DNA from: Arcicella aurantiaca
Lineage (GTDB): Bacteria; Bacteroidota; Bacteroidia; Cytophagales; Spirosomataceae
Assembly (NCBI RefSeq): GCF_003148625.1
Contig: NZ_QGGO01000014.1
Span: 62,001-126,000 of the forward strand
Reading direction: 5' to 3'
DNA: 64,000 bases
Position 1 is the stretch's first letter. Each line of letters begins with the position of its first letter. The position numbers were made by a program, and so were the translations under genes. The notes beneath the pieces are model-generated. The model had not been told where the DNA came from and did not search any database. It saw only the letters and a program-made list of their open reading frames with translations. Positions 512 to 63,758 of the stretch are shown here, piece after piece.

Positions 512-575
512 GTAACACAGCCTTTAGTCTGTTATTCAACTTACAGAAGACTAAAGGCTGTATTATTTTTATTTT
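512..575. repeat. GTAAC-type palindromic repeat / terminator after the first gene
   Basis: GTAACACAGCCTTTAGTCTGT (start 512) is followed by an inverted partner containing AGACTAAAGGCTGT and then a T-rich run. It starts one base after a stop codon. The copy is a diverged member of the family seen at 5978, 17370, 19161, 46236 and 63705, and as a long hairpin plus T-run it also qualifies as a rho-independent terminator. Confidence 0.75.
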
Positions 576-5977: not shown

Positions 5978-6037
5978 GTAACACAGACTTTAGTCTGTTG
6001 TCGAGCTATTATAATTACAGACTAAAGTCTGTGGTAC
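5978..6037. repeat. GTAAC-type palindromic repeat between the GT39-like gene and rpe
   Basis: GTAACACAGACTTTAGTCTGT (5978-5998) and its inverted partner ACAGACTAAAGTCTGTGGTAC (6017-6037) enclose an 18-nt linker. Each 16-bp core ACAGACTTTAGTCTGT is a near-perfect palindrome by itself, so nested hairpins are possible. The right end lies 6 nt from the stop codon of the minus-strand GT39-like gene. Confidence 0.85.
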
Positions 6038-12366: not shown

Positions 12367-12370
12367 AATT

Positions 12371-12497
12371 TATGAGTTATGAGTTATGAGTTATGAGTTA
12401 TGAGTTATGAGTTATGAGTTATGAGTTAAAAATAGTATGAATTTATAAGCATAGTTCCCAAAATTCATAATTTTTAATTCATAACTCATATTTTTTT
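12371..12497. repeat. 7-bp tandem repeat (GAGTTAT) and inverted partner
   Basis: From 12371 to about 12427 the unit GAGTTAT is repeated perfectly about eight times, starting 4 nt after the stop of the lipoprotein gene. At 12465-12490 the reverse complement (ATAACTCAT) recurs close to the stop of the convergent peptidase gene, so a transcript of the gap could fold back. No gene is seen here. Confidence 0.85.
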
Positions 12498-16605: not shown

Positions 16606-17370
16606 ATGTTTTCATTAAAGGATAAATCAGTAATTATTACAGGTGGTGGCTCTGGCATTGGTAGAGCAATTTCATTATTATTTGCCAAACAAGGGGCATT
16701 TGTCAACATCATTGAACTCAATCAAGTGGCTGCCGATGAAACGGTTGCTCAAATTTTGCAAGAAGGCGGACAAGCAAAAGCTTATGCCTGCAATATTGTA
16801 AATCAGGGTAAAGTTTTGGAAGTATTTCAGCAAATTGGACGGGTAGATATTTTAGTAAATAATGCAGGAATTGCTCATGTGGGCAATCTTGAAAATACTT
16901 CTGAAGAAGATTTCGACCGAATTTATCAAGTTAATGTAAAAGGTGCTTACAATTGTCTTTTTGTGGCAATCCCGATGATGAAAGAACAAGGCGGTGGAGT
17001 AGTTTTAAATATGGCTTCAGTGGCTTCAAGTGTTGGAATTTCAGACCGTTTTGCCTATTCAATGTCCAAAGGAGCAATTTTAACCATGACTTTATCTATC
17101 GCAAAAGACTATCTGAAAAGTAATATTCGTTGTAACTGTATTTCTCCTGCACGTGTACATACGCCGTTTGTTGATGGTTTTTTAGCCAAAAATTATCCTG
17201 ATAACATCGACGAAATGTTTGATAAACTTTCGGCATCACAACCCATTGGACGCATGGGAAAACCTGAAGAAATTGCTCATTTGGCCTTGTACTTATGTTC
17301 AGACGAAGCAGGTTTTGTTACAGGATGCGACTACCCAATTGACGGAGGATTTACTCGATTGAATAATTAG
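16606..17370 (+). CDS. SDR oxidoreductase, probably 2-keto-3-deoxy-L-fuconate dehydrogenase
   Basis: A 254-residue classical short-chain dehydrogenase: 'TGGGSGIG' (13-19) binds the nucleotide, 'LVNNAGIAH' stabilises the core, Ser in 'NMASVASS' and 'YSMSK' form the catalytic Ser-Tyr-Lys set, and the C-terminus has 'YPIDGGF'. The operon context points to oxidation of 2-keto-3-deoxy-L-fuconate to the 2,4-diketo acid. SDR substrate cannot be read from sequence alone. The stop codon TAG shares its G with the first base of the long palindromic repeat array at 17370. Confidence 0.85.
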   Translation: MFSLKDKSVIITGGGSGIGRAISLLFAKQGAFVNIIELNQVAADETVAQILQEGGQAKAYACNIVNQGKVLEVFQQIGRVDILVNNAGIAHVGNLENTSEEDFDRIYQVNVKGAYNCLFVAIPMMKEQGGGVVLNMASVASSVGISDRFAYSMSKGAILTMTLSIAKDYLKSNIRCNCISPARVHTPFVDGFLAKNYPDNIDEMFDKLSASQPIGRMGKPEEIAHLALYLCSDEAGFVTGCDYPIDGGFTRLNN

Positions 17371-17613
17371 TAACACAGACTTCAGTCTGTAAAAAGTAAC
17401 GCAGACTTCAGTCTGTAAAAAGTAACACAGACTTCGAGTCTGTAAAAAAGTAACGCAGACTTCAGTCTGTAAAAAAAGTAACACAGACTTCAGTCTGTAA
17501 AAAGTAACACAGACTTCAGTCTGTAAAAAAAGTAACACAGACTTCGGTCTGTAAAAAGTAATGCAGACTTCGAGTCTGTAAAAAAAATCAATACAGACTA
17601 AAGTCTGTGTTAC
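17370..17613. repeat. Array of eight GTAAC-type palindromic units with an inverted closing unit
   Basis: Eight direct copies of about 26-30 nt (GTAACACAGACTTCAGTCTGT plus an A-run of 5-8) are followed by one inverted copy (ACAGACTAAAGTCTGTGTTAC). Units differ by single changes: AC/GC/TG in the flank, TTCAG, TTCGAG or TTCGG at the core, and A-run length. The array begins on the last base of the stop codon of the upstream gene and ends 26 nt before the next start, filling the gap inside the operon. The units are spacer-less palindromes, unlike a CRISPR array. Confidence 0.9.
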
Positions 17614-18309: not shown

Positions 18310-19164
18310 ATGAAATTATTCAGATTTGGAGCAATTGGAGAAGAAAAACCCGGTATTTGCATCGACGAAAAGATGTATGACGTTTCTTCTTATGTACAAG
18401 ATTATAACGAATCTTTTTTTGAAAAAGATGGACTTTCAACACTTGCTCAAGCTTTAAAAGACGGTAATGTTGCATTAACGGAAATTCCTGCGGGAGTACG
18501 CATTGCTTCATGTGTGGCTCGTCCTTCAAAAATTGTTTGTATTGGACTAAACTTTGCTGACCACGCTCGTGAAACTGGTGCAGAAATTCCTAAAGAACCA
18601 ATCATCTTCTTTAAATCAACCACGGCATTATCAGGACCAAATGACGACGTAATTATTCCTAAAAATTCTGTAAAAACAGACTGGGAAGTTGAATTAGCTT
18701 TCGTTATCAGTAAAAAAGCTCAGTACGTTGAAGAAGAAAATGCCATGGATTATGTGGCAGGATATTGCTTACACAATGACCTTTCAGAAAGAGAATTTCA
18801 ATTAGAAAGAGGAGGAAATTGGAGTAAAGGAAAAGGTTGCGATACTTTTGCACCACTTGGACCATTTTTAGTGACTAAAGATGAAATTGAAGATGTTAAT
18901 AATTTAAAAATGTGGCTTAACGTAAATGACAAGCAGTTTCAAGTTAGTAATACCGACCAATTGATTTTCAAAATCCCAACTTTAGTTTCCTATTTAAGCC
19001 AATTCATGACGCTTCTTCCTGGTGATGTTATTTCAACAGGAACTCCACATGGCGTAGGTTTAGGCTTCAAACCACCTATCTATTTGAAAGAAGGTGATGT
19101 CATGGAATTAGGTATCGACGGACTTGGAACTCAGAAACAAAAAGCAGTAAATTATAGCAAGTAA
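18310..19164 (+). CDS. FAH-family hydrolase, probably 2,4-diketo-3-deoxy-L-fuconate hydrolase
   Basis: A 284-residue fumarylacetoacetase-superfamily protein. 'IGLNFADHARE' opens the catalytic domain; 'DWEVELAFVI' provides the metal Glu pair, 'CLHNDLSEREFQLERG' the metal Asp, 'WSKGKGCDTFAPLGPF' the conserved Lys loop and 'ISTGTPHGVG' the C-terminal strand. In the non-phosphorylative L-fucose route this branch cleaves the diketo acid to pyruvate and lactate. It follows the SGNH gene by 4 nt. Its stop codon TAA lies inside the next palindromic repeat. Confidence 0.87.
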   Translation: MKLFRFGAIGEEKPGICIDEKMYDVSSYVQDYNESFFEKDGLSTLAQALKDGNVALTEIPAGVRIASCVARPSKIVCIGLNFADHARETGAEIPKEPIIFFKSTTALSGPNDDVIIPKNSVKTDWEVELAFVISKKAQYVEEENAMDYVAGYCLHNDLSEREFQLERGGNWSKGKGCDTFAPLGPFLVTKDEIEDVNNLKMWLNVNDKQFQVSNTDQLIFKIPTLVSYLSQFMTLLPGDVISTGTPHGVGLGFKPPIYLKEGDVMELGIDGLGTQKQKAVNYSK

Positions 19165-19237
19165 CACGGATTTCAATCTGTATAAGTAACACAAACTTTA
19201 GCCTATATTTTTTCTTACAGACTGAAGTCTGTGTTAC
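19161..19237. repeat. GTAAC-type palindromic repeat whose TAA is the stop codon of the FAH gene
   Basis: The segment opens GTAACACGGATTTCAATCTGT (19161-19181), has a second, decayed unit at about 19186, and closes with ACAGACTGAAGTCTGTGTTAC (19217-19237). The TAA at 19162-19164 is the stop codon of the FAH-family gene, so the repeat itself sets the protein end. Confidence 0.85.
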
Positions 19238-34805: not shown

Positions 34806-35209
34806 ACCTGTATTTTGGTTAATTGTTATTGGTTAATTGGTTATTGGTTATTGGGAATTAGTTAATTGGTTATTGGTATTCGTGAGCTGGGAATATATTT
34901 AAACCTTGCTAATCATTATTTAATCCTTGCTAATCATTATCATTGTCAATTCCTTTAACTATACTTTTTAGTATGTGGATATATATAACCAGTAACCAAT
35001 TCCCAATTAACCAGTAACCAATTAACCAGTAACCTATTCCCAATTAACCAGTAACCTATTCCCAATTAACCAGTAACCTATTCCCAATTAACCAGTAACC
35101 AATTCCCAATTAACCAGTAACCTATTCCCAATTAACCAGTAACCTATTCCCAATTAACCAGTAACCAATTCCCAATTAACCAATAACCAATTCACCAGTA
35201 ACCAATAAC
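34806..35209. repeat. Inverted tandem-repeat region (TTAATTGGTTATTGG words and 22-bp units)
   Basis: At 34813-34880 words of the type TTAATTGGTTATTGG are repeated on the plus strand. From about 34987 to 35209 the complementary sequence occurs as roughly ten copies of a ~22-bp unit (CAATTAACCAGTAACCTATTCC, with AATT/TATT variants). The two blocks are inverted around a ~105-bp unique centre that contains a doubled CTTGCTAATCATTAT. The right block touches the GH67 stop codon (0 nt). No gene is seen in the 446-bp gap. Confidence 0.85.
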
Positions 35210-41828: not shown

Positions 41829-42219
41829 TAATTGGTTATTGGGTATTGGTTAATTGGTTATTGGTTATTGGTTAATTGGTTATTGGTTAATTGGCTAATT
41901 GGTTATTGGTTAATTGGTTAATTGGTTATTGGGTATTGGTTAATTGGTTAATTGGTTATTGGGTATTGGGTATGGATATGGGGTATAATTCACTATTCAC
42001 TATTCACTATTCACTATTCACTATTCACTATTCACTATTCACTATTCTCTATTCTCTATTCTCTATTCTCTATCCACTATCCACTATCCACTATCCACTA
42101 TTCTCTATCAACTATTCTCTATCCACTATTCTCTATCCACTATTCTCTATCCACTATTCTCTATCCACTATTCTCTATCAACTATTCTCTATCAACTATT
42201 CTCTATCAACTATTCTCTA
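41829..42219. repeat. Two tandem-repeat blocks between the yeeE pair and the MBL-rhodanese gene
   Basis: 41829-41966 is made of TTAATTGGTTATTGG-type words as at 34813. 41989-42219 is made of CTATTCACTATTCA, then CTATTCTCTAT, CTATCCACTAT and CTATCAACTAT variants (period 7 and higher-order 14 and 21). The second block runs into the gene: the minus-strand stop codon TAG at 42217-42219 is the CTA of a repeat unit. ORFs crossing this region are repeat-coded only. No gene is supported in the 404-bp gap. Confidence 0.85.
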
Positions 42220-43635
42220 TTTCATTTTTGATTGACAAACAAAATCCGTTTTGGGAATATCAGTTTTAGCAATTTGAGCAAAACCGCCTGCTACATCAAC
42301 AATATTATCAAAACCTCTTGCTTTTAAAATGGAACACGCAATCATTGAACGATAACCTCCTGCACAATGAATATAATTGGGTTCTGATTTAGAAAATTCT
42401 ACCATATTCTTGCTCAAATTCGCTAAGGGAATATTCATGGCTTCCTCTATGTGTTCTGCCATATATTCAGTTGGTTTACGAACGTCTTTTACCATCAATT
42501 TCCCTTCTGATTCTTTAAACTTTAACGCAAAATCTTCCGCAGAAATAGATTGGATTATGTCTATTTCTTTGCCAGCTTCAACCCATGATTGGAAACCATC
42601 TTCTAAATATCCAATGACATTATCATAACCCACTCTCGATAAACGAGTAATGGCTTCGTTCAAATTGTCATCTTCAACAACAAGTAAAAGTGGTTGTTTA
42701 ATATCAGTGACCAAAGTACCAACCCAAGGAGCAAAATCGCCAGAAATGCCAATATTTATTGAGTTTGGAATAAAACCTTCTTTGAAAATATCTGCCTTGC
42801 GAGTATCAATAATTAAAGCTCCTGTTTCGTTAGCAGCGGCTTCAAAAGCTTGTACAGAAAGTGGTTGTGCATCTTTTAATACTAACGATAAATCTTTTGC
42901 CCCCGATTTATTCATCATTACATTTTGTGGGAAATAATACGGCGGAGGCACTAATTCTAAGCCATCTGTTACTTCCTTGATAAATTCTTCACGAGACATA
43001 TTGGCACGTAAAGCGTAATTGAACATTTTTTGGTTGCCAAGCGTATCAAAAGTTTCTTTACTCATATTTTTACCACAAGCAGAACCCGCTCCGTGTGCAG
43101 GATAAACCAACACGTCATTCGCCAAAGTCATTACTTTATTACGAAGAGAATCAAATAAATAGCCCGCTAAGTCATAAATAGTTAAATCAGATTTTTGTGC
43201 TAAATCTGGACGACCAACATCACCAATAAAAAGTGTATCGCCTGAGAACAAAGCATAATCTTTTCCATTTTCATCAATTAATAAAAAACACGAAGATTCC
43301 ATTGTGTGTCCAGGTGTATGCAAAACTTTAATTTTCACTTTTCCTACTTCCAAAACTTGTCCGTCGGTAGCAATAATAGCCTCAAAACTTGGTTTGGCAG
43401 TCGGTCCAAAAACAATGGGGGCATTCGTTTTCTTTGATAATTCAACATGACCCGAAACAAAATCTGCATGGAAGTGCGTTTCAAGAATATATTTAATTTT
43501 AGAACCTTGTTTCTCAGCTTTATCCAAATAAGGTTGTACTTCACGAAGTGGGTCAATAATTACACTCTCACCTTCTGACTCAATATAATACGCTCCCTGA
43601 GCTAAACAACCTGTATAAATTTGTTCGATTACCAT
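42217..43635 (-). CDS. MBL-fold hydrolase fused to two rhodanese domains (persulfide dioxygenase-like)
   Basis: 472 residues. The metallo-beta-lactamase domain (~1-245) has H54-F-H56-A-D58 and H63 of the metal-binding 'THFHADFVSGH', then 'HTPGHTMES' and 'VYPAHGAGSACG'. Two rhodanese-like domains follow: the first (~255-345) lacks the catalytic Cys (the loop reads 'VVEDDN'), the second (~370-465) has C424 in 'IHCAGGYRS', the rhodanese loop. This is the layout of bacterial persulfide dioxygenase-rhodanese proteins (BlrH/CstB-like), which oxidise persulfides and move sulfane sulfur. The stop codon derives from the downstream tandem repeat. Confidence 0.88.
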   Translation of the reverse strand: MVIEQIYTGCLAQGAYYIESEGESVIIDPLREVQPYLDKAEKQGSKIKYILETHFHADFVSGHVELSKKTNAPIVFGPTAKPSFEAIIATDGQVLEVGKVKIKVLHTPGHTMESSCFLLIDENGKDYALFSGDTLFIGDVGRPDLAQKSDLTIYDLAGYLFDSLRNKVMTLANDVLVYPAHGAGSACGKNMSKETFDTLGNQKMFNYALRANMSREEFIKEVTDGLELVPPPYYFPQNVMMNKSGAKDLSLVLKDAQPLSVQAFEAAANETGALIIDTRKADIFKEGFIPNSINIGISGDFAPWVGTLVTDIKQPLLLVVEDDNLNEAITRLSRVGYDNVIGYLEDGFQSWVEAGKEIDIIQSISAEDFALKFKESEGKLMVKDVRKPTEYMAEHIEEAMNIPLANLSKNMVEFSKSEPNYIHCAGGYRSMIACSILKARGFDNIVDVAGGFAQIAKTDIPKTDFVCQSKMK

Positions 43636-46235: not shown

Positions 46236-46297
46236 GTACCACAGACTTTAGTCTGTAAGTTAAGTTTTATTGTGTTTCAGACTAAAGTCTGAGTTAC
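46236..46297. repeat. GTAAC-type palindromic repeat inside the ebo operon, supplying the eboE stop codon
   Basis: GTACCACAGACTTTAGTCTGT (46236-46256) and inverted CAGACTAAAGTCTGAGTTAC (46278-46297) enclose a 21-nt linker. On the minus strand the eboE gene ends AAG-TAA, where TAA (46296-46294) is part of the GTAAC of the repeat. The element lies between eboE and eboF. Confidence 0.85.
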
Positions 46298-62795: not shown

Positions 62796-63704
62796 ATGAG
62801 AAGAGAATTTTCAGATGCCATCGAAAAAATTGCACTTGCAGACGAGAAAGTCGTTTTTATTACGGGCGATTTAGGCTACAACGCACTCGAAAACTTACAA
62901 GAAAAGTTAGGAAATCGCTTTATTAATGCAGGCGTTGCCGAACAAAACATGGTAGGTTTAGCCGCAGGAATGGCATACAAAGGATTTAAAGTTTTTTGTT
63001 ATTCAATTGCTCCATTCATCGTTTACCGTTGTTGGGAACAATTCAGAAATGACGTTTGCTTGCATAATTTGCCTGTTTTCTTGGTTGGAAATGGAGGTGG
63101 CTATGGCTACGGGATTATGGGAAGTTCGCACCATGCCATTGAAGATATTGCAGGTTTGAGTAGTCTTCAAAACGTAAAATGTTGGGTTCCTGCCTTTGCA
63201 GATGATGTAGAACCATTCGTAAATCAAATAGTTGCAGATGGTCGCCCTGCTTATTTACGTTTAGGAGCAGGAAAGCAAACCCCTGCCCATGAAGGCAACT
63301 TTGGAAGTTTGAAAATGGTGGTAAAATCTGACGAAGCGAAAGGAACAATCGTTGCTTTAGGACCCGTTGCTAATAATGTGGTAGCAGTTTTGCAACAAGA
63401 AGAATTTGCCAATAAATTTAATCTTTTAACTGCCCAAAATGTTCCTTTGACTATTAATAATGAAGGCTTGTCTTTATTGCAAAACACTGAAAATCTATTA
63501 GTTATCGAAGAACACGTTAGTATTGGCGGATTAGCACAACAACTTTCAGTGCAATTAATGGAGAATGGTATTACCTTCAAAAAATTCATTAGTCTTAGAG
63601 CTGAGGGTTATCCAGATGGGACTTATGGCGACCAAAATTTTCATCAAACTCAATCTGGTTTAGATGCAAAAAATATCGCTGATAAATTAAGACTTTTCGT
63701 TTAA
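62796..63704 (+). CDS. Transketolase-like subunit, C-terminal (Pyr) half
   Basis: 302 residues covering the pyrimidine-binding and C-terminal domains. 'ITGDLGYNALE' opens the domain and 'FINAGVAEQNMVGLAAGMA' contains the catalytic Glu of transketolases; 'APFIVYRCWEQFRND' is another conserved part, and 'LVIEEHVSIGGLAQQL' begins the C-terminal domain. It complements the gene at 59729. A repeat element starts directly after the stop (0 nt). Confidence 0.87.
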   Translation: MRREFSDAIEKIALADEKVVFITGDLGYNALENLQEKLGNRFINAGVAEQNMVGLAAGMAYKGFKVFCYSIAPFIVYRCWEQFRNDVCLHNLPVFLVGNGGGYGYGIMGSSHHAIEDIAGLSSLQNVKCWVPAFADDVEPFVNQIVADGRPAYLRLGAGKQTPAHEGNFGSLKMVVKSDEAKGTIVALGPVANNVVAVLQQEEFANKFNLLTAQNVPLTINNEGLSLLQNTENLLVIEEHVSIGGLAQQLSVQLMENGITFKKFISLRAEGYPDGTYGDQNFHQTQSGLDAKNIADKLRLFV

Positions 63705-63758
63705 GTAACTCAGACTTCAGTCTGTAAATTTAAAAGTACAGACTAAAGTCTGCGTTAC
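63705..63758. repeat. GTAAC-type palindromic repeat directly after the transketolase stop
   Basis: GTAACTCAGACTTCAGTCTGT (63705-63725) and inverted ACAGACTAAAGTCTGCGTTAC (63738-63758) enclose a 12-nt linker. The repeat starts at the base after the TAA stop codon. Confidence 0.85.

Follow-up and report, generated by a model that had tools for sequence, protein, structure and literature searches.

The window analysed here, a stretch of 64,000 nt of Arcicella aurantiaca DNA, contains three genes whose stop codons form part of a repeat. A gene for a FAH-family hydrolase (18310–19164, plus strand) ends in AAG (19159–19161) and TAA (19162–19164), and this TAA lies within the GTAAC at 19161–19165, the foot of a REPIN-like element (layout > > <) that runs on the plus strand from GTAAC at 19161 to GTTAC at 19237 and folds into one hairpin of −25.8 kcal/mol (z −5.9). 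The gene eboE (NCBIfam NF035939; 46294–47577, minus strand) also ends in AAG TAA, its TAA (46296–46294) being that of the GTAAC foot of a second REPIN-like element (46236–46297, minus strand), which reads GTTAC at the corresponding plus-strand end. The initial annotation had attributed both stops to the TAA of the repeat's GTAAC end, following an AAG codon, and this is confirmed at both coordinates. It had also placed the stop of an MBL-fold/rhodanese gene within a tandem unit, which is likewise correct: the gene (42217–43635, minus strand) ends in AAA TAG, and the TAG (42219–42217) belongs to the first unit of a 7/14-nt tandem array (41988–42220) whose units are of the AGAATAG type on the minus strand. 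This array is a repeat of another kind than the REP-like element, and it likewise begins at an old stop. The EboE reading lies above the NCBIfam cut-off, whereas the FAH-like and MBL/rhodanese readings fall below it.

Further repeats in the window are similarly placed. An array of eight direct units and one inverted unit (17370–17613, plus strand) completes, with its first G, the TAG stop of an SDR gene (16606–17370). REPIN-like elements were found 1 nt past the stop of a gene ending at 510 (512–561, plus strand), 6 nt past the stop of gene 7864–6044 (5978–6037, minus strand, with a GTACC foot) and immediately after the TAA of gene 62796–63704 (63705–63758, plus strand). The window thus has six repeat sites, each on or nearly on a stop (510, 6044, 17370, 19164, 46294 and 63704). 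Terminator-like matches occurred within the array at 17370–17613 on the minus strand only (8 vs 1.0 in shuffles), none was reported for 19161–19237, and a search of the window against Rfam gave no match above the gathering score. Heptamer-type arrays that carry a stop of the upstream strand in their unit (CAGTAAG, TTATGAG, GTGTTAG, AGAATAG) begin at or in stops; in the window they are found at 12370–12428, 34986–35209 and 41988–42220.

The repeat unit consists of a GTAAC foot and an ACAGACT-NN-AGTCTGT hairpin (ACAGACTNNAGTCTGT). Two units in opposite orientation form an element about 52 bp long, which folds as a single extended hairpin (energy −21 to −32 kcal/mol, z −5 to −10); most clusters are such inverted doublets (layout > <). 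The hairpin core has 31 matches in the window, where shuffles give 0.5, and the 21-mer has 18, where none is expected; genome-wide (5.93 Mb) there are 299 units, compared with 4 for a reversed control pattern. The units are almost only intergenic, one of 66 clusters lying deep within a gene. The feet of 117 outward ends include GTAAC (101), GTAGC (9) and GTACC (4), the known REP foot being GT[AG]G. The repeat is a high-copy palindrome, occurs as inverted doublets and is present or absent between close relatives, with empty sites seen in G005, G001, G003, G004 and G007; its anatomy is that of REP/REPIN elements.

A search of 79 genomes, including the host (G000), with up to two mismatches returned nine with at least one match. 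Besides the host, G005 and G006 have many copies, G002 has four, and a few distant genomes have 1–9 each. Four genomes of the same genus (G001, G003, G004 and G007) showed no copy at up to two mismatches, and 'repeat-free' is used here in this sense, for draft genomes that are 88–99% complete. The exact 21-mer GTAACACAGACTTYAGTCTGT is also found in MAGs of Ignavibacteria, Acidobacteria and Helicobacteraceae (L233, L236, L252, L267 and L273–L275), a pattern that suggests either broad horizontal transfer or REPs that evolved convergently. In a Terriglobia MAG the same hairpin occurs with GTAGC feet.

The position of the element relative to genes was determined in a sample of 1.63 Mb, composed of the whole contigs C1–C3, the window plus 12 kb of flanking DNA, and parts of C4–C11 and C15 picked around known copies. 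Gene ends were taken from a purpose-made dicodon-score caller, and the null model was uniform placement in intergenic DNA. The outward GTAAC-type ends number 117, of which 69 point towards a stop and 48 towards a start. Sixty of the 69 stop-facing ends lie no more than 7 nt from the stop, against about 4.5% expected (binomial p about 1e-70). Eighteen of them are at −4, where the stop is the TAA of GTAAC, six are at −1, where a TAG stop shares its G with the repeat's first base, 34 are at 0 to +7, and there is one each at −23 and −41. The start-facing ends are 3 to 1026 nt away, with 16/48 within 15 nt vs 7% expected. Convergent gene pairs most often carry the element (20/208), and 17 of these 20 have 10 bp or less of other spacer. 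When all GTAA words are considered, the element occupies 9% of those at −4, 30% at −1 and 39% at 0 to +7, and 0.7% of those at +8 to +30, which is a sharp limit at 7 nt. It could be argued that an AT-rich genome has so many GTAAC ends and so many TAA stops that they meet by pure coincidence, and GTAA stops do terminate 15% of the genes; the excess within 7 nt and the fall in GTAA occupancy beyond that distance speak against such an accident, which is refuted and deserves practically no credence. In G006, for which the listed copies were fetched, 8/11 ends that face a stop come no further than 7 nt from it; the value for G005, 13/14, comes from a biased sample, as its copies were recruited at such sites. 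For heptamer-type arrays in the 1.63 Mb sample, the share of ends within 7 nt is 34% for those facing a stop and 16% for those facing a start.

The initial annotation had proposed that the repeat sets the C-terminus and that insertion may have shortened or lengthened the protein. The end codon of the FAH gene is shared by the sister genome G005, which has AAG TAA and no repeat, and by G001, G003, G004 and G007; the SDR gene, too, ends at the same codon in these five genomes. The MBL-rhodanese gene shares its end codon with G005 and G001, and the stop triplet alone differs, being TAA there and TAG here. The end of EboE is variable: the residues before the stop are SIL-K here, SIL-NV in G005, SIL-EI in G003 and G007, and GLL in G001, so that the protein is one residue shorter than in G005, G003 and G007 and one longer than in G001. 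The comparison with G005 covered genes whose stop carries a repeat in G000 and none detected in G005, with genes lacking a repeat as controls, and 7/29 C-termini were found to be changed vs 2/49 (Fisher p = 0.011); for three of these 29 genes G005 contains an interrupted or decayed copy, and all three ends are unchanged. Against the four repeat-free genomes, 17/50 comparisons (19 genes) differ vs 24/92 controls (p = 0.34), where the sites share ancestry and the comparisons with the four relatives are not independent. The stop is therefore kept in 22/29 genes relative to G005 and in 33/50 comparisons with the repeat-free genomes, the control rate being 68/92, and the changes amount to 1–3 residues, as at eboE, C2:93246 and C5b:30953. 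The stop is generally older than the repeat, and a minority of ends has been shifted by a few residues, in excess only at close range. Proteins are mostly unchanged because, as the repeat-free relatives show, the stop was usually there first.

These figures bear on the view that the repeat brings its own TAA and, by inserting in the last codons, resets the protein end through truncation or extension. The excess of changed C-termini over controls in the comparison with G005, together with the shifted ends of the three genes just named, is what such a view predicts, but most ends are unchanged, no excess is seen relative to the repeat-free genomes, and at two sites GTAA predates the element. Moreover, the −23 frame, which would add seven residues, is nearly empty. 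The stops are not random in-frame truncations, since 18 of them are at −4 and only one is at −23, the other frame that ends in the first unit. As a general rule, resetting by the repeat's own TAA is refuted by the repeat-free genomes, and we regard it as an unlikely account of the family; it is valid for a minority of sites. What remains of the original proposal is this minority, which includes eboE, while FAH, MBL-rhodanese and most other sites keep their end codon.

Intergenic DNA turns over too fast for most sites, and only a few can be aligned as exact empty sites. The cleanest of these is L095:10873. In the repeat-free G003 it reads AAATTGTAA followed directly by aatatacctttaac, i.e. GTAA and then aatatacc-tttaac, and in the repeat-free G004 and G007 TAG is followed by gttttaac. 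G000 has the REPIN exactly between the words GTAA and tttaac, and the sister G005 has a different, unrelated hairpin in this very position. At C2:162207, the repeat-free G001, G003 and G004 all have GTAA, and G005 has another hairpin family with GTAAC ends. At both sites GTAA predates the repeat. According to the initial annotation, its proposal would be contradicted by repeat-free homologues with the same stop codon and flanking GTAAC; this is what three repeat-free genomes show at C2:162207 and one at L095:10873, GTAA itself being present in them. GTAA in G005, taken by itself, does not establish which way the change went, because it may be the footprint of a lost element: at the 63705 site the G005 orthologue (L203) keeps GTAA-AATTTGT-GTTAC where G000 has a full element, and this GTAA..GTGTTAC looks like a deletion remnant. 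The repeat-free genomes, unlike G005 alone, can show that direction. Different hairpin families at the same stop in G000 and G005 were observed at C2:165015 vs L213 and at L095:10787 vs L218, and at C2:165015 the two REPs flank an intact terminator-like hairpin.

GTAA itself was considered as the insertion target. G005 often keeps GTAA, which suggested it, but GTAA words located 8–80 nt from the stop are almost never occupied, and GTAA stands at the stop in the repeat-free genomes in 7/31 cases at −4 sites vs 13/92 controls, with no clear excess. A simple GTAA target is therefore rejected as the full explanation.

The host genome encodes seven IS200-like (Y1_Tnp) transposases. Five of these were scanned against NCBIfam: L033 and L036 reach the RAYT cut-off, L035 is just below it (78.3 vs 80), and L031 and L032 fit the general IS200/IS605 model instead. 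The hairpin was found within 1.5 kb of none of the seven host loci (0/7), and near none of 44 outside loci, so no cognate transposase emerged among them. As no RAYT flanked by the hairpin was found, the element is called 'REP-like' and not the REP of a known RAYT. Other REP families with a GTAA foot do flank RAYT-like genes in the host genome, and the two families beside L035 and L036 have the same geometry, with 5/11 stop-facing ends at −4. The RAYT-like gene L035:1078–1824 and the gene upstream of it both end in the TAA of another REP family's GTAACCCG foot. In the canonical GTAG-footed GTAGAGACGTTGCCTGCAACGT family of G000, the TAG stop is supplied in 5/15 units.

The explanation that we favour, and consider probable, is that a non-autonomous element of the REP/REPIN type, presumably moved by a RAYT, has inserted at pre-existing stops or no more than 7 nt after them, and that protein ends have mostly been kept. 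An element with a GTAA[C] foot and a short hairpin, in inverted doublets, would presumably depend on an IS200/IS605-like transposase of the RAYT type acting in trans, and would insert at an existing stop or up to 7 nt after it. At or beside a GTAA stop, its GTAA foot would coincide with the G-TAA of the host and the protein end would be kept; a minority of insertions would shift the end by 1–3 residues. A G-TAA-C foot would be neutral at a stop, and insertion at existing stops, or retention next to them, may have been favoured. The hairpin could be passive or could act as a terminator or as an mRNA-end hairpin. This explanation builds on what was observed, namely the geometry relative to stops and starts, the copy number, the conserved stops and the empty sites, and it is also backed by the common geometry of the two REP families next to RAYT-like genes and by the placement of the copies in G006. 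Against it stand the failure to find, in the host or among the outside loci, a transposase gene flanked by the hairpin, the distribution of occupied GTAA words, which a GTAA target does not account for by itself, the lack of a clear GTAA excess at the −4 sites of the repeat-free genomes, and the chance that GTAA in G005 is a footprint.

It is also conceivable that the element inserts anywhere in intergenic DNA and is brought to the stop later, through selection for a hairpin near the stop and deletion of the spacer. Hairpins of any kind do hug stops: 73% of repeat-free convergent gaps of 30–170 bp hold a strong inverted repeat vs 0% in shuffles, and the outer edges of these inverted repeats are at a median of 6–7 nt from both stops, often extending nearly from stop to stop. 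The share is 24% in tandem gaps and 3% in divergent gaps, with 0–6% in shuffles. The convergent gaps that bear the element, being almost devoid of other spacer, also suit later compaction. However, L095:10873 and the SDR site have the element exactly at the stop and keep the downstream spacer almost unchanged, which indicates that no compaction took place there, and the two sister species differ in the hairpin that occupies one identical base. We give later selection and compaction a substantial chance, somewhat short of even, an estimate that overlaps with the one for insertion at pre-existing stops because in both accounts the stop precedes the repeat. A further proposal is that insertion itself, and not later selection, is directed to the 3' ends of genes, within 7 nt of the stop whatever its codon, and would be coupled to translation termination, transcription termination or exposed single-stranded DNA. 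It would cover the unrelated hairpins of the sister species too, and the exact sites with preserved spacer and the sharp 7-nt limit speak for it; we hold it as a tentative idea, rather improbable at present.

GTAG REPs adjoin the 3' ends of ORFs, and in convergent pairs less than 20 bp separates them from either stop; their distance to downstream starts is variable, and their termini 'often provide' a TAG stop to flanking ORFs (PMC3733652). The same study listed GTAG repeats in Proteobacteria, Cyanobacteria, Chloroflexi and PVC, and Bacteroidetes with CGTC repeats only (PMC3733652). The element described here resembles the GTAG-tagged REPs in its palindromic units, 5' tetranucleotide foot, doublets and proximity to ORF 3' ends, but its main foot is GTAA(C), which gives TAA, and the present analysis adds the comparison of empty sites with repeat-free relatives. 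That REPs hug ORF 3' ends and supply the stop was therefore already known; the present repeat varies this pattern, with a GTAA foot and a TAA stop, in Bacteroidota. As in REPIN/RAYT systems, two inverted hairpins form the unit, IS200/IS605-like RAYT genes are present in the genome and the stop codons of rayt genes are in some cases directly adjoined by a REP; unlike in those systems, no RAYT was found to be flanked by the present hairpin, and the foot is GTAA, not GT[AG]G (PMC3116915, PMC2817692, PMC8266576). In E. coli, REPs occur within 15 nt of the stop, and lower translation has been reported when they are less than 16 nt away (reviewed in PMC12306157). The hairpin immediately downstream of the stop is a shared trait, and here the repeat overlaps the stop itself in many genes. 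Intergenic arrays of TAACTGA and other heptamers contain stops in all frames and overlap upstream stops, and in Beggiatoaceae most of them sit just upstream of starts (PMC4679880). The MBL-rhodanese array is of this kind, but has a unit of the AGAATAG type, and the arrays here adjoin stops.

Two things that are often run together can now be separated, namely a repeat that contains the stop, which is common, and a repeat that changes the protein, which is rare and of small effect. With the sharp 7-nt limit and the different hairpins of sister species at one stop, the old question of why REPs hug the 3' ends of genes can be put to a direct test. In annotation, one to three unusual residues at the C-terminus are to be anticipated where such a repeat meets a stop.
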